This document shows positions 14,256 to 18,994 of a DNA stretch of 33,128 nucleotides, piece after piece. The notes beneath the pieces are model-generated. The model was not told the origin of the DNA, did no database searches, and worked only from the letters and a program-made list of their open reading frames with translations. Every line of letters begins with the position of its first letter. The stretch's first letter is position 1. Origin of the DNA: an uncultured Bacilli bacterium (GTDB lineage Bacteria; Bacillota_I; Bacilli_A; RF39; UBA660); assembly GCA_944332675.1 (NCBI GenBank), contig CALVKJ010000007.1, positions 1 to 33,128 on the forward strand. The letters are read 5' to 3'. Position numbers and translations under genes: made by a program.

Positions 14256-15536
14256 TTATTTATCATATTCGTCGTCTTTAAATGTAAACATATAATCAAG
14301 TATTTGCACTTCATCTCCTGGCTTTGCCCCCAATGATTCTAGTTCATCTTCAATTCCCATTCCTTTAAACTTACGAGCAAACCTAAGCGCCCCTTCATCT
14401 TCTTCAAATTTAGTCATTTTAAGAAGGGTTTCTATCTCTTTACCACTAACTATCCAGATATTACCATCTCTTTTTATCGAATACGGTTTTTCATCTTCAA
14501 ATTTGTATAATTTAAAATCACTTTCTTCATATAATTTTACTTCTGGAATATTTTCTAACTCTTTAGCTAATGTTTCAATTAAATTATCAATTCCTGTATT
14601 ATCCATACAACTTATTTCAATTATTTGTGCGTTTTTAAATTCTTTCTTAAAATTTGCTAAATTTTCTTGAGATCCAGGCAAATCCATTTTATTAGCTATA
14701 ATTACTTCTTTTTTCATTTTTAAAGTATCGTTATACTTTTCTATTTCGCTTCTTATAGTTTTATAATCATCAATTGGGTTTCTGCCTTCACTAGCTCCCA
14801 TATCAATTACATGAGCAAGTATTTTGGTACGCATTGCATGTCGCAAGAATTCATGTCCTAAACCTACACCAACACTCGCTCCTTCAATTAAACCAGGTAA
14901 ATCTGCCATAACAAAAGATGAACCATTTTTAAGTTTTACTACACCTAGATTTGGTGAAAGTGTCGTAAAGTGATATGCGGCAATCTTGGGCTTAGCACTA
15001 GAAATAATCGATAAAAGAGTTGATTTTCCAACACTTGGCATACCAATTAAGCCAACATCCGCTAAAACTTTTAATTCAAGTCTAACAGTTATTTCTTCGC
15101 CTGGTTCACCTTTTTCGCTAAACTTTGGCGCTGGCATATCATGAGTTGCAAAAGATTTATTTCCTTTACCACCTCTGCCTCCACGAGCAACAACAACTGA
15201 TTCATCATCTGCAGTTAAATCAGCAATCACTTCATTAGTTTCGGCATTATATATAGTAGTACCAGCTGGAACATTAATAATTATATCCTCGGCATTCTTT
15301 CCATATTTATTTGATCCCTTACCATTTTCCCCCTTTTCTGCCTTAATAATTTTTCTGTAACTAAGATCAATCAAAGTCTTTAAACTTTTATCCACTTTAA
15401 AAATAATGCTAGCTCCCCGGCCACCATTTCCACCATCTGGTCCACCCATCGGCACATACTTTTCTCTTCTAAAAGAAGTACAGCCATCTCCACCCGGACC
15501 AGCCATAAGTTTTATAGTTAGTTCATCAACAAACAT
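14256..15536 (-). CDS. obg: GTPase Obg (ribosome assembly / stress GTPase)
   Basis: This essential GTPase acts in 50S subunit maturation. From the ATG at 15536 (AGGTGA five bases upstream) it has 426 residues; an in-frame codon 15 positions upstream lacks a ribosome site. The Gly-rich Obg fold (about 1-158) includes GPGGDGCTSFRREKYVPMGG. The G domain has G1 GMPSVGKS (165-172), G3 DLPG (212-215) and G4 NKMD (282-285). The C-terminal OCT domain (about 345-426) ends with an acidic tail. All motifs are intact. In B. subtilis obg follows rpmA (with spo0B between); here an ATPase, trmB and a rhuM-like gene lie between rpmA and obg. Confidence 0.98.
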   Translation of the reverse strand: MFVDELTIKLMAGPGGDGCTSFRREKYVPMGGPDGGNGGRGASIIFKVDKSLKTLIDLSYRKIIKAEKGENGKGSNKYGKNAEDIIINVPAGTTIYNAETNEVIADLTADDESVVVARGGRGGKGNKSFATHDMPAPKFSEKGEPGEEITVRLELKVLADVGLIGMPSVGKSTLLSIISSAKPKIAAYHFTTLSPNLGVVKLKNGSSFVMADLPGLIEGASVGVGLGHEFLRHAMRTKILAHVIDMGASEGRNPIDDYKTIRSEIEKYNDTLKMKKEVIIANKMDLPGSQENLANFKKEFKNAQIIEISCMDNTGIDNLIETLAKELENIPEVKLYEESDFKLYKFEDEKPYSIKRDGNIWIVSGKEIETLLKMTKFEEDEGALRFARKFKGMGIEDELESLGAKPGDEVQILDYMFTFKDDEYDK

Positions 15537-15560
15537 ACAATCACCTATGTATATATTAAC

Positions 15561-15590
15561 ATAATACCTTTCAAAAAACAATTATTCCAA
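15561..15590 (-). promoter_or_regulatory. Possible promoter for obg
   Basis: TTGGAA (15585-15590) and TATTAT (15561-15566) on the minus strand with an 18-base spacer, just upstream of the obg start and after the rhuM-like stop. A modest match only. Confidence 0.35.
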
Positions 15591-15598
15591 TTATACCA

Positions 15599-16591
15599 TT
15601 AATTATTCTCTTCTATTTCCTTGAGTCCTATATTCATAATTTCTAAATAATCCTTTTCAGCCTTAGTTAAATGTTCTTTCATATATTTATCATATTCTGC
15701 ATGAGCCTTTTTTAAAGCCTCTTCATGAAAAACAGTTCCTTTTGTACGTAATATATCATTATGGGTCATCGTTAAAAAACTATCTAGTTCATTAATCCAA
15801 TCTTGCATAGTCATTGCCTTTCTCTTTAACGCATTAATTTCAGCAATGTCTAAATAAGCAGATACTAATCTATTTAAAACCTGTAATTCTTCATGCGTTA
15901 AATAATTTTTAGCAATTTCTGTTTCTTTTCTGGTAGGCATATCCCCTTTAAAATTTGTAAGTCCTATATTATCCTTATTACTGTCGACCCTATTATAAAC
16001 AATTTCAGCAGCAGTATTATTAGAAACTGCATAATGCATCTTATTTTGAATAGTCCTAAAAAAATTAATAGTAATTTCTTTCTCTGGATTATAATCGATT
16101 GAGGTTGCATATATATCTAATATTTTTCTCCAGAAAACTTTTTCGCTTGATCTTATATCCCTAATTTTATCAAGCAATTCATCAAAATATGGATCATTAC
16201 CATTATTTTTAAATCTTTCAACATTTAGATTATAGCCTTTTACTAAATATTCTTTTAATTTTTCATTAGCCCATATTCTAAATTTGGTTCCCTCTTCAGA
16301 TTTAACTCTAAAACCTATAGCAATTATCATATCTAAATTATAATAATTAGTTGGTTTAGTAGAAAATTCGGAATTTCCGAATTTTCTCATAGTATTTGCT
16401 TCTGATAATTCCCGTTCTAAATAAATATTCTTTATATGTTCATTTATTGTAGATTTAGCTTTATTATAGAGTTTACTAATCTGTTCTTGGGTAAGCCAAA
16501 CATTTTCTTCTTCCAAGATAACATCAACTTTTATATCATTATCTCTTTCATATATTAAAACACTATTCTCTATTACATCTTTGCGTTCCAA
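15599..16591 (-). CDS. RhuM-family protein
   Basis: This 330-residue protein resembles the virulence RhuM family, which occurs in genomic islands and has no proven biochemical activity. Family signs are an N-terminal winged-helix-like region with VWLTQEQISKLYNKAKSTI (about 31-49), then the conserved block TNYYNLDMIIAIGFRVKSEEG, RIWANEKLKEYLVKGYNL, and the charged C-terminal part with MTMQDWINELDSFLTMTHNDIL. The start is TTG with GGTGA five bases upstream; no internal ATG is better placed. It lies alone between divergent trmB and obg in a stretch that also holds an AAA/DUF4143 ATPase and a toxin-antitoxin pair, so it was probably gained by transfer. A role as DNA-binding regulator or defence-related protein is possible but not shown. 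Confidence 0.88.
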   Translation of the reverse strand: MERKDVIENSVLIYERDNDIKVDVILEEENVWLTQEQISKLYNKAKSTINEHIKNIYLERELSEANTMRKFGNSEFSTKPTNYYNLDMIIAIGFRVKSEEGTKFRIWANEKLKEYLVKGYNLNVERFKNNGNDPYFDELLDKIRDIRSSEKVFWRKILDIYATSIDYNPEKEITINFFRTIQNKMHYAVSNNTAAEIVYNRVDSNKDNIGLTNFKGDMPTRKETEIAKNYLTHEELQVLNRLVSAYLDIAEINALKRKAMTMQDWINELDSFLTMTHNDILRTKGTVFHEEALKKAHAEYDKYMKEHLTKAEKDYLEIMNIGLKEIEENN

Positions 16592-16649
16592 TTAAATCAC
16601 CGCCCTTACTTTAATTAATCTCAAATTCCAACATCACTAACTTGTGTAT

Positions 16650-16678
16650 ATATTACCATAATCCCTTTTAAAAAACAA
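16650..16678 (-). promoter_or_regulatory. Possible promoter for the rhuM-like gene
   Basis: TTGTTT (16673-16678), a 17-base spacer and TAATAT (16650-16655) on the minus strand, in the 120-base divergent gap between the rhuM-like gene and trmB. Control of trmB from the other strand probably overlaps it. Confidence 0.35.
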
Positions 16679-16711
16679 TTGCTCGTGGTAAAATATTAAT
16701 GGGAGTGAGTT

Positions 16712-17350
16712 ATGGAATATAATGTAGTAAAAAATGCCAGTGGTATTTTAAATAGTAGTAAATATTATGTGAGCAATCCTACTAAATATAAAGGAAAATG
16801 GAGTGATTTTTTTAGTAATAAAAATCCAATTCATTTAGAACTGGGAACTGGTCGGGGGGAATTCATCATCCAAATGGCTAAGAAGTACCCTGAATATAAC
16901 TTCATCGGCTTGGAACTTAATGAATCTCAAATTGCCACCGCCGCTAAAAAACTAGAAAGAGAAAACATCAAAAATCTAAAACTAATCAAAGATGATGCTA
17001 GAAATATTATTAATATCTTTGGTAAAGAAATCGATACTATCTATTTGACTTTTTCTGAACCTTGGCCTAAAAAACGTGATGAAAAGAATAGATTTACTCA
17101 CGAATCATATTTAAAACTGTATGATAGAATATTTAAAAAAGATAAACACATTATTTTAAAGACTGATAATAAAGGTTTATTTGCTTATTCACTAGAAACA
17201 CTTTCGCAATATTGGTATGTATTTGATACAGTTAGCTTGGATTTACATAATGATGAAAGATGCATACCAAATATAATGACTGATTTCGAAATGCAATATT
17301 TCAAAGAAAAAAGACCAATTTATTACTTAGATGCTAGTTTTAAAAATTAA
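16712..17350 (+). CDS. trmB: tRNA (guanine-N7-)-methyltransferase TrmB
   Basis: Uses S-adenosylmethionine to make m7G46 in the variable loop of tRNAs. The 212-residue protein has the SAM-binding motif HLELGTGRGEF (41-51), the acidic strand FIGLELNES, the family-defining SEPWPKKR (115-122, here Glu for the more usual Asp), TDNKGLFAYS, and the C-terminal TDFEMQYFKEKRPIYYL. The ATG follows a GGGAG site. It is one of only two well-supported genes on the plus strand and is flanked by accessory genes on both sides. A bidirectional terminator closes it. Confidence 0.96.
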   Translation: MEYNVVKNASGILNSSKYYVSNPTKYKGKWSDFFSNKNPIHLELGTGRGEFIIQMAKKYPEYNFIGLELNESQIATAAKKLERENIKNLKLIKDDARNIINIFGKEIDTIYLTFSEPWPKKRDEKNRFTHESYLKLYDRIFKKDKHIILKTDNKGLFAYSLETLSQYWYVFDTVSLDLHNDERCIPNIMTDFEMQYFKEKRPIYYLDASFKN

Positions 17351-17352
17351 AG

Positions 17353-17390
17353 AAAAAACAGCTATTTAAAAAACGAGATAGCTGTTTTTT
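17353..17390. terminator. Bidirectional terminator between trmB and the AAA/DUF4143 gene
   Basis: A 13-bp perfect stem, 17353-17365 with 17378-17390, is flanked by A and T runs so it works on both strands. It starts 3 bases after the trmB stop and reaches the first base of the stop codon of the convergent ATPase gene. Confidence 0.85.
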
Positions 17391-18577
17391 TATTCTTCCA
17401 ATAAGAAATCTATTATATTTTGAATTTTTATTCCATCAATAACTGTATTATCATATTTATCATTAGTAATTATGATTTTTTCATAATTATCATTTAATAA
17501 TAGTAATGATCTTTTTTCTCTTTCCAATACCTCATTATCAGAAATATTTCTACATACTTGATAATATTTTGTTTCATTAGGACTTATGGCTATAAAATCT
17601 ATTTCTACATCACGATGTTTTCCTACATACACTTGATATCCCCTTCGTAATAGTTCTATATAAACAATGTTTTCAAAAGCACTACCACTATCATAGCTAG
17701 CAAATCCATTAATTACATTTCTAATACCTTGATCAACAAAATAATATTTACCTTGAGTTTTAAGCAAATTCTTGCCATCTAATGAATATCTTGGTACCCT
17801 ATAAATTATATATGCATTTTCTAACATTTTAAGATAACTATCAACAGTTTCATTATGGATTTTTCTCCCTGATTTATTTAAATAGTCAGTTATATTAGTA
17901 GCGGAAGTCAAATTGCCAATAACAGAAGAAGTAAATTGTAATAAATTGTCAAGTAAAGCGATATCCTTTATGTTATTTCTACTTATAACATCGTTTTTTA
18001 ATACTACGTCCTTTATATCTAACAAATAATTAGTAATTAATTCTGAATCATTTAAACTGGTAACCAAAGGCATACCACCATATTTTAAATAGTTTGCAAA
18101 ATTTTCTTCTTTAGAATTATTACTTTTAACATCATTATATTCTTTAAATGAAAAAGGGTAAAGTCTTAATGTTAAAACCCGACCAGCCAAAAGCGTAGTG
18201 AGTTCACTCGATAGAATATATGCATTTGAACCAGTTACATAAATATCACAATCAATATCTACTAATAATGAATTTAAGGATTTTTCCCATTTTTCTACAT
18301 TTTGAATTTCATCTAATAAAATATATAATTTTTTATTATTATACTTACCTTTAATATATTGAGTTAATTTCTTATAATCAGTAATTTCATACCAATCAGA
18401 ACTTTCAAAATTCATATAAATAATATCATCTTGACTAATATTTGATTCTAACAAATAATCTTTAAATTGCAATAATAAGGTTGATTTTCCGCACCTTCTA
18501 ACCCCAGTAATAACTTTAATAAGATTAATATCCTTATATTTTTTTAAGATATTTAAATATCTTTCCCTACGATACAT
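17390..18577 (-). CDS. AAA (AAA_14) ATPase with DUF4143 C-terminal domain
   Basis: This 395-residue ATPase belongs to a family common in archaea and anaerobic bacteria whose function is not settled. Walker A GVRRCGKST lies at 25-33, Walker B ILLDE at 86-90, followed by the conserved LTTLLAGR region. The C-terminal DUF4143 part (about 200-395) has YFVDQGIRNVINGF, FENIVYIELLRRGYQVYVGK and EIDFIAI. That Glu-x-Asp pattern resembles a PD-(D/E)xK nuclease-like fold, which is a family observation and not proof of cleavage. The start ATG has a GGTGATG site. A consensus promoter lies upstream and two inverted repeats abut it, suggesting tight, perhaps self-exerted, control. It interrupts the usual rpmA-obg order and is likely mobile cargo. 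Confidence 0.92.
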   Translation of the reverse strand: MYRRERYLNILKKYKDINLIKVITGVRRCGKSTLLLQFKDYLLESNISQDDIIYMNFESSDWYEITDYKKLTQYIKGKYNNKKLYILLDEIQNVEKWEKSLNSLLVDIDCDIYVTGSNAYILSSELTTLLAGRVLTLRLYPFSFKEYNDVKSNNSKEENFANYLKYGGMPLVTSLNDSELITNYLLDIKDVVLKNDVISRNNIKDIALLDNLLQFTSSVIGNLTSATNITDYLNKSGRKIHNETVDSYLKMLENAYIIYRVPRYSLDGKNLLKTQGKYYFVDQGIRNVINGFASYDSGSAFENIVYIELLRRGYQVYVGKHRDVEIDFIAISPNETKYYQVCRNISDNEVLEREKRSLLLLNDNYEKIIITNDKYDNTVIDGIKIQNIIDFLLEE

Positions 18578-18595
18578 TTGTTCATCACCATTTAA

Positions 18596-18624
18596 ATTGT
18601 AACAAAATTAATTGTGTTTGTCAA
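18596..18624 (-). promoter_or_regulatory. Promoter of the AAA/DUF4143 gene
   Basis: TTGACA (18619-18624), a 17-base spacer and TACAAT (18596-18601) on the minus strand. The -35 box overlaps by two bases the perfect palindrome at 18623-18650. Confidence 0.75.
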
Positions 18625-18650
18625 CTTTTACGGTTATAACCGTAAAAGTT
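18623..18650. promoter_or_regulatory. Perfect 28-bp palindrome, candidate operator of the AAA/DUF4143 gene
   Basis: The half-site AACTTTTACGGTTA is followed directly by its exact reverse complement. It overlaps the end of the -35 box of the ATPase promoter. A related element, with the same TTTTACGG/CCGTAAAA core, lies 39 bases further upstream (center to center). Confidence 0.75.
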
Positions 18651-18661
18651 TCATTTTTTAC

Positions 18662-18689
18662 AAGTTTTACGGCCACAACCGTAAAACTT
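18662..18689. repeat. Second inverted repeat related to the 28-bp palindrome
   Basis: Arms AAGTTTTACGG (18662-18672) and CCGTAAAACTT (18679-18689) form an 11-bp stem with a 6-base center. The core equals that of the palindrome at 18623-18650. On the plus strand it is followed by a T run and could also act as a terminator. Confidence 0.7.
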
Positions 18690-18698
18690 TTTTTGCAA

Positions 18699-18717
18699 CA
18701 AAAAAGCGCTTACGCTT
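18699..18717 (-). terminator. Short terminator of the rplU-prp-rpmA operon
   Basis: The stem AAGCG/CGCTT (18713-18717 with 18704-18708) has a 4-base loop and is followed on the minus strand by TTTTTG. The rpmA stop codon (18710-18712) is in the loop and first stem base, so the hairpin and the gene end overlap. Confidence 0.55.
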
Positions 18718-18994
18718 CGTAAACACTTACTTTCTTTCTATTTTTACCAGATCTTTCATATTTAACCACACCAGCAATTTTTGCAAATAATGTGTGATCC
18801 TTACCCATTCCAACATTTGTACCTGGATAAATCTTTGTTCCTCTTTGACGATAAATAATAGATCCAGCACTTACCATTTGTCCATCACTAGCTTTAGCAC
18901 CTAAACGACGACCTGCAGAATCACGACCGTTTTTAGTTGAACCTTGAGCTTTAACGTGCGCAAATAATTGGATGTTTAACTTCATGAATTTCAT
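18710..18994 (-). CDS. rpmA: 50S ribosomal protein L27 with cleavable N-terminal extension
   Basis: L27 lies at the peptidyl-transferase centre. The 94-residue precursor starts [13 protein letters not shown]; the Firmicutes-type extension ends at Phe11 and is removed by the protease Prp before Ala12. The mature part shows [17 protein letters not shown], the QRGTK motif, [15 protein letters not shown] and GVVKYE. GGAGG seven bases ahead of the ATG supports this start over the Met at position 4. The ATG overlaps the prp TGA (ATGA), so protease and substrate are translationally coupled. Confidence 0.98.

Follow-up and report, generated by a model that had tools for sequence, protein, structure and literature searches.

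Paired palindromes at the promoter of a DUF4143 ATPase gene as a probable operator bound by the ATPase itself

What recognises two related palindromes that stand directly in front of an ATPase gene in an uncultured Bacilli bacterium (RF39; UBA660)? The window analysed here is the whole stretch of 33,128 nucleotides (nt) of contig CALVKJ010000007.1 (assembly GCA_944332675.1). The gene lies on the minus strand at 17390-18577 and codes for a protein of 395 residues. The protein matched Pfam AAA_14 (1.8e-36) and DUF4143 (3.4e-19), both over the curated cut-off, and near full length the PADLOC model PDLC04787, PDC-S01 (1.3e-148). No useful name for the protein was obtained from PHROGs or NCBIfam. 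Comparison of relatives and a structural model suggest that the palindromes are probably the operator of this gene and are bound by the ATPase itself.

The proximal operator candidate (site 1, 18623-18650) has the sequence AACTTTTACGGTTATAACCGTAAAAGTT and is a perfect palindrome over 28 base pairs (bp) with the half-sites TTTTACGG and CCGTAAAA. It is the longest perfect palindrome in the window, with 0.0014 expected by composition, and the runner-up has 18 bp. The distal candidate (site 2, 18662-18689) has the sequence AAGTTTTACGGCCACAACCGTAAAACTT, an inverted repeat with 11-nt arms and a 6-nt centre, and lies 39 bp away from start to start. The promoter of the ATPase gene on the minus strand is composed of the −35 hexamer TTGACA (18619-18624), a spacer of 17 bp and the −10 hexamer TACAAT (18596-18601), and a likely ribosome-binding site, GGTGAT, was read from the sequence at 18584-18589. 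The promoter matches the consensus at 11 of 12 positions, and the arm of site 1, followed along the minus strand, runs into the first TT of the −35 hexamer, so that the two overlap. This confirms the claim of a sequence-only reading of this DNA that a perfect 28-bp palindrome sits on the −35 of a consensus promoter. The same reading had placed a second inverted repeat with the same core 39 bp upstream. Its position, its spacing and the 8-bp half-site CCGTAAAA common to both sites were found as claimed, whereas the rim and the centre differ, the arms ending with GTT in site 1 and with CTT in site 2.

The recurrence of this layout was followed in the upstream DNA of 30 relatives and then of about 120 more from the family and the class. 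The regions were scored for palindromy without a consensus bonus (threshold 17), in place of an earlier score with credit for the known consensus. Rows with repeated proteins or truncated upstream regions (L068, L096 and L114 among them) were left out. At least 17 was reached by 76 of the 148 DUF4143 upstream regions, compared with 1.2% of the shuffles and 1.7% of 591 coding segments, and by 5/161 upstream regions of neighbouring open reading frames (ORFs). In a second, wider set from many phyla 14 of 69 were over the threshold, against 0.65% of the shuffles. By this strict score a putative operator is clear in about half of the sampled relatives.

The upstream regions over the threshold had a six-letter centre (N6) in 74 of 76 cases, and their right arm ended at a median of 49 nt before the start codon. 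In most close relatives the design was an N6-centred inverted repeat ending one base before the −35, with an extra half-site farther up. The −35 had the same offset from the predicted operator as in the window in 70/87 relatives, and a −10-like hexamer was found at one common offset in 64/83. The sigma-A consensus was matched at 10 or more of its 12 positions by 62/87 promoters and by 4/348 coding control segments. A third half-site with at least 7/8 letters was located 39-41 bp upstream in 72/87 loci, where 28 were expected with the arms dealt at random, and this fixed distance fits a putative cooperative binding at the paired sites. A symmetrical site is thus kept at a fixed place of the promoter in relatives, as would be looked for in a self-binding operator.

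The letters of the half-site vary by clade, and paralogues within one genome differ too. The main types of the right arm are CCGTAAAA, TTGCAAAA, TTCCAAAA, TACAAAAA, TGAAAAAA and TGCAAAAA. Six paralogues were sampled in one genome, G088. Four of them have clear, differing half-sites, namely CCGAAAAA (L014), TACAAAAA (L070), TGAAAAAA (L091) and CGTACTAA (L126), and a fifth (L128) has its own perfect palindrome of 36 bp. The palindrome ATTTGAAGTTAACTTCAAAT, or nearly so, is common to Enterococcus sp. RIT-PI-f (L247) and Vagococcus fessus (L239).

The protein was modelled with AlphaFold2 from 149 sequences (mean pLDDT 91.5). The AAA+ ATPase domain takes up codons 1-150 (18128-18577, minus strand as for all parts of the gene), and G25, G30, K31, D89, E90 and R133 were invariant in the 215 aligned relatives. 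A winged helix-turn-helix is predicted at codons 226-280 (17738-17902), with helices at 226-235 and 242-254 and strands at 258-265 and 270-280, so the protein has a predicted DNA-binding domain of the kind that a self-binding operator calls for. The helix 242-254 (17816-17854) is the predicted recognition helix, and at its start is residue 243, a glutamate in the window protein (17849-17851). By fold only, an AAA+ part followed by a winged helix places the protein with the STAND and ORC-like NTPases. Its nearest folds of known structure are those of the archaeal ATPases 2fna and 2qen, followed by STAND immune and apoptotic ATPases and by Cdc6/Orc1 on origin DNA.

The third part, codons 298-393 (17399-17686), is a PD-(D/E)XK-like domain, a fold assigned from the literature. 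In the 215 relatives D327 and Q340 were present in all and E302/E325 in 213. The usual position of the catalytic lysine (342) is occupied by C in the window protein and by A, T, S, C or V across the relatives, so that a complete motif ending in lysine, as in an active nuclease, was absent. The nuclease-like part may be inactive or may use another residue, for example a displaced lysine.

The half-site letters at 94 loci were compared with the 395 columns of the protein by mutual information, corrected for the general variation of the columns. E243 ranked first, and the best window of 9 residues was centred on 244. In a cluster test, consensus sequences were taken from 107 loci, the identity outside the winged helix was regressed out and the labels were permuted. 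Column 243 showed the lowest permutation p of the 395 columns at 34, 31 and 22 clusters, each time at the floor of 0.00025. In the first clustering (23) it was the sole column with p ≤0.001, yet the fifth by size of the statistic. Four separate clusters, Selenomonas among them, combine Asn243 with TGAAAAAA, and Glu or Asp at 243 occurred with CG in both arms in 6/9 clusters compared with 2/30 others (Fisher p 0.0006). It had been proposed from the sequence that recurrence of the sites before other members would point to a family that regulates itself or targets this DNA. The layout before most close relatives and the co-variation of the half-site with the recognition helix support this.

The correspondence was then tried on new loci. 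Ten residue-pair codes were fixed first, and 106 further loci were gathered. Such pairs at 242-243 include Asn-Glu with CCGT and His-Gln with TTGC. With 18 seen earlier and 2 short ones set aside, 86 were new, many of them close to earlier ones, and 37 of these had a coded residue pair. When preference was given to the N6 frame, the correct code came first in 20/37 loci, where about 4 were expected; it did so in 6/6 Asn-His, 3/3 Asn, 3/3 Val-Pro and 5/6 Val-His loci. The fixed-code test is positive but partial, and to that extent the site letters followed the residues predicted to read the DNA.

Copies of the sites were searched in the own genome of the bacterium, which comprises 1,045,358 bases and is 68% complete. 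Allowing up to 2 mismatches, the 22-bp core pattern turned up in this partial genome at the two sites only, and the backward control pattern at 1 place. With up to 1 mismatch, the core matched in 4 of the 145 family genomes searched, the own genome included. A genome of the same genus has two copies, likewise between rpmA and the DUF4143 gene, with the 39-bp spacing kept and the central letters altered. A second genome (G012) has one copy before a DUF4143 gene in another neighbourhood, and a third (G007) has a 1-mismatch match on a contig without a listed DUF4143 relative.

Copies of two half-site types, TTCC and TTGC, were counted against the list of relatives, the former in 31 genomes selected for it and the latter in 20 selected mostly for it. 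Exact copies were at a DUF4143 gene in 24/25 cases for TTCC and in 13/14 for TTGC. When near-matches were included, the TTCC type had 8 places away from the gene, compared with 5 for its backward control. The two stray exact copies were taken as chance: one (G070:C5:29388) is inside a pgsA-like ORF and the other (G240:C73:310) in a short ORF near ABC-transporter-like and ftsX-like genes, all named from sequence reading. Lack of conservation and many unrelated copies had been named in advance as outcomes that would speak against the proposal. Neither occurred, as the sites are kept in the same-genus genome and in one more distant genome, and exact copies elsewhere are near absent.

Several observations weigh against binding by the ATPase itself. 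In the sample scored by palindromy, 72/148 upstream regions were under the threshold, and some close relatives (L067, L076, L092) have no obvious palindrome. The statistic of column 125 in the AAA domain (window 18203-18205) was larger than that of 243 at two of the three cluster cut-offs. A pairwise analysis ranked residues 122-130 highest among the 9-residue windows, though 243 was the top single column. Asn243 occurs with other half-sites in four more clusters. For the TTGC type, near-matches included, 16 places were away from the gene and 3 for the backward control, which contains the rare CG and is hence itself rarer; there may be a few weak extra sites of this type elsewhere. In the fixed-code test 49/86 new loci had no code, and the right code was not first in 17/37, made up of 11/13 Asn-Glu loci, 4/4 Ser-Lys loci, one Val-His locus and one tied Ile-Asp locus. 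Nine of the 11 failing Asn-Glu loci belong to a clade with ACGG-N4-CCGT or near it, in which the half-site is similar and the centre shorter, and the four Ser-Lys loci resemble a paralogue of the own genome, L144. When the spacing was left free, 10/13 Asn-Glu loci ranked first and overall 20/37 were first and 28/37 first or second; this version uses six letters and blurs codes that are shifted by one letter, and the remark on spacing was made after the result had been seen.

The paralogue L144 (G000:C4:37737-39518) has the palindrome GCCAATATATTTTCC-TGCG-GGAAAATATATTGGC before the gene, and its clade, with Ser-Lys at 242-243, breaks the simple code. At two Asn-Glu loci, L268 and L330, the CCGCAAAA half-sites point by eye outward around the promoter, not inward.

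A different arrangement was found in a sister branch. The sister DUF4143 gene of the own genome (G000:C63:2379-3704) codes for an EVK motif in the nuclease-like part and is preceded by direct repeats before the −35, with no palindrome. Among the 30 loci of this branch (L356-L385), a direct repeat with at least 12/14 letters was present in 22, and the period was 32 or 33 bp in all 22. Repeats with 13/14 letters were reached in 19/30 loci, compared with 0.8% of the shuffles and 0/120 coding segments. The sequences of these iteron-like repeats are private to each gene.

Because the predicted operator is fused to the promoter across relatives, has a half-site private to clade and paralogue and co-varies with residue 243, binding of the ATPase to its own promoter is the most likely reading. 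Two subunits would hold the palindrome, and a third, in the window also a fourth, would hold the half-site 39 bp upstream. The bound ATPase would cover the −35 of the near-consensus promoter and repress its own synthesis, and the ATP state or the AAA+ assembly would set the occupancy of the operator. A signal such as infection could release the ATPase from it. Each DUF4143 gene would thus carry a private address. With a strong promoter predicted to be bound at its −35, repression is favoured, and the ATPase probably represses its own promoter.

It is also conceivable, although rather unlikely, that the ATPase binds its own sites without repressing, either as an activator from the −35-proximal site or by using the DNA as a sensor or as a platform for assembly, like Cdc6/Orc1 on origin repeats. 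The proximal palindrome abuts the promoter rather than covering it, a position that activators also use. The occurrence of Cdc6/Orc1 on origin DNA and of STAND assemblies among the closest folds points in this direction as well, and so does the sister branch with its direct repeats. For activation, little would be left to add at promoters that are mostly near the consensus already. A separate transcription factor, encoded elsewhere, appears improbable: a palindrome at the −35 is a usual site for any dimeric regulator, but the paralogues of G088 would then need one regulator each, and the half-site tracks a residue of the ATPase.

The patchy distribution of the gene, with a relative at E 1e-20 or better in 149/386 family genomes, would suit repeats that mark the termini of a mobile unit, or repeats that are targeted in invading DNA. 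The own genome has no further copy. Of 2.9 million viral contigs 16 matched the exact pattern, and no DUF4143 relative accompanied it in the viral contig DNA examined; the viral scan also returned no close relatives of the window protein. A target in invading DNA was therefore rejected, and we regard this whole class of explanations as very improbable. Terminators, an RNA element or chance are the least credible, close to negligible. A scan lists the repeats as terminator-like on the plus strand, but rpmA and the DUF4143 gene are read along the minus strand, where a T run is absent after the repeats, and rpmA has its own terminator-like hairpin (18703-18728, minus strand) separate from the predicted operators. 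The repeats are upstream of the predicted −10 and have no Rfam match, and both an intrinsic terminator and an RNA element were rejected. The conservation across relatives and the co-variation contradict chance as well.

In the window, the DUF4143 gene, a trmB-like methyltransferase gene and a RhuM-family gene sit between rpmA (L27) and obg (14256-18994). The genes rpmA and obg are usually adjacent, and the region is an accessory insertion within the rplU-prp-rpmA-obg cluster.

Among solved structures, the best match was SSO1545 (2fna; Z 17.5, root-mean-square deviation (rmsd) 3.4, 261 aligned), followed by PABY2304 (2qen; Z 17.4, rmsd 3.2, 260 aligned), each over residues 1-291. These archaeal AAA+ ATPases have 16-18% identity to the window protein, and we know of no DNA-site data for either. 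The Cdc6/Orc1 initiators (2qby, Z 12.7) likewise combine an ATPase with a winged helix by which they bind sites on DNA. The superposition is loose (rmsd 9.7, 262 aligned), and the sites in the window are on the gene's own promoter. In plasmid iteron/Rep systems a winged-helix protein represses itself by binding repeats in the promoter of its gene. With its direct repeats 32-33 bp apart the sister branch resembles them, whereas the present branch has palindromes. Regulators of the BrxR and CapW type bind by a winged helix and control themselves. In PMC9122601 and PMC9122588, BrxR and CapW are WYL-type transcription factors tied to defence genes; they are separate regulators, whereas in the window the ATPase most likely acts as its own regulator.

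PDC-S01 is described in PMC12988326 as an ATPase fused to a part of the PD-(D/E)XK superfamily, from which the present branch differs by the non-lysine residue at the lysine position of the nuclease motif. That paper ranks PDC-S01/DUF4143 fourth most common across prokaryotes and states that anti-phage validation is pending for most PDCs and that an antiviral role of PDC-S01 is not yet validated. It was the most frequent single locus of a rumen survey, as given in PMC13356809. In PMC4406477 a Thermus DUF4143 gene is tabled with helix-turn-helix motifs, where the text treats how expression changes with plasmid DNA. The open-access literature searched yielded nothing on operators, on the reading of DNA or on self-regulation in PDC-S01/DUF4143.

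Of the candidate defence genes that lack an explanation, those of PDC-S01/DUF4143 belong to the most common, and the literature searched gave no established target for them. In a wider and tentative picture, which we consider unlikely to hold as a whole, DUF4143 ATPases would be self-addressed. Each gene would have a private address on the DNA, recognised through a compact code at 242-243, paralogues would avoid cross-talk, and the AAA+ part would assemble there. The promoter would serve as storage and tripwire: once dislodged by invading DNA or its proteins, the ATPase would be made in larger amounts and be free to act. The 32-33-bp direct repeats of the sister branch suggest that the rule may hold in much of the DUF4143 superfamily. 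The predicted DNA target, together with the candidate specificity residues, makes a simple assay for the family available, and the numerous private half-sites offer possibly orthogonal repressor-operator pairs.
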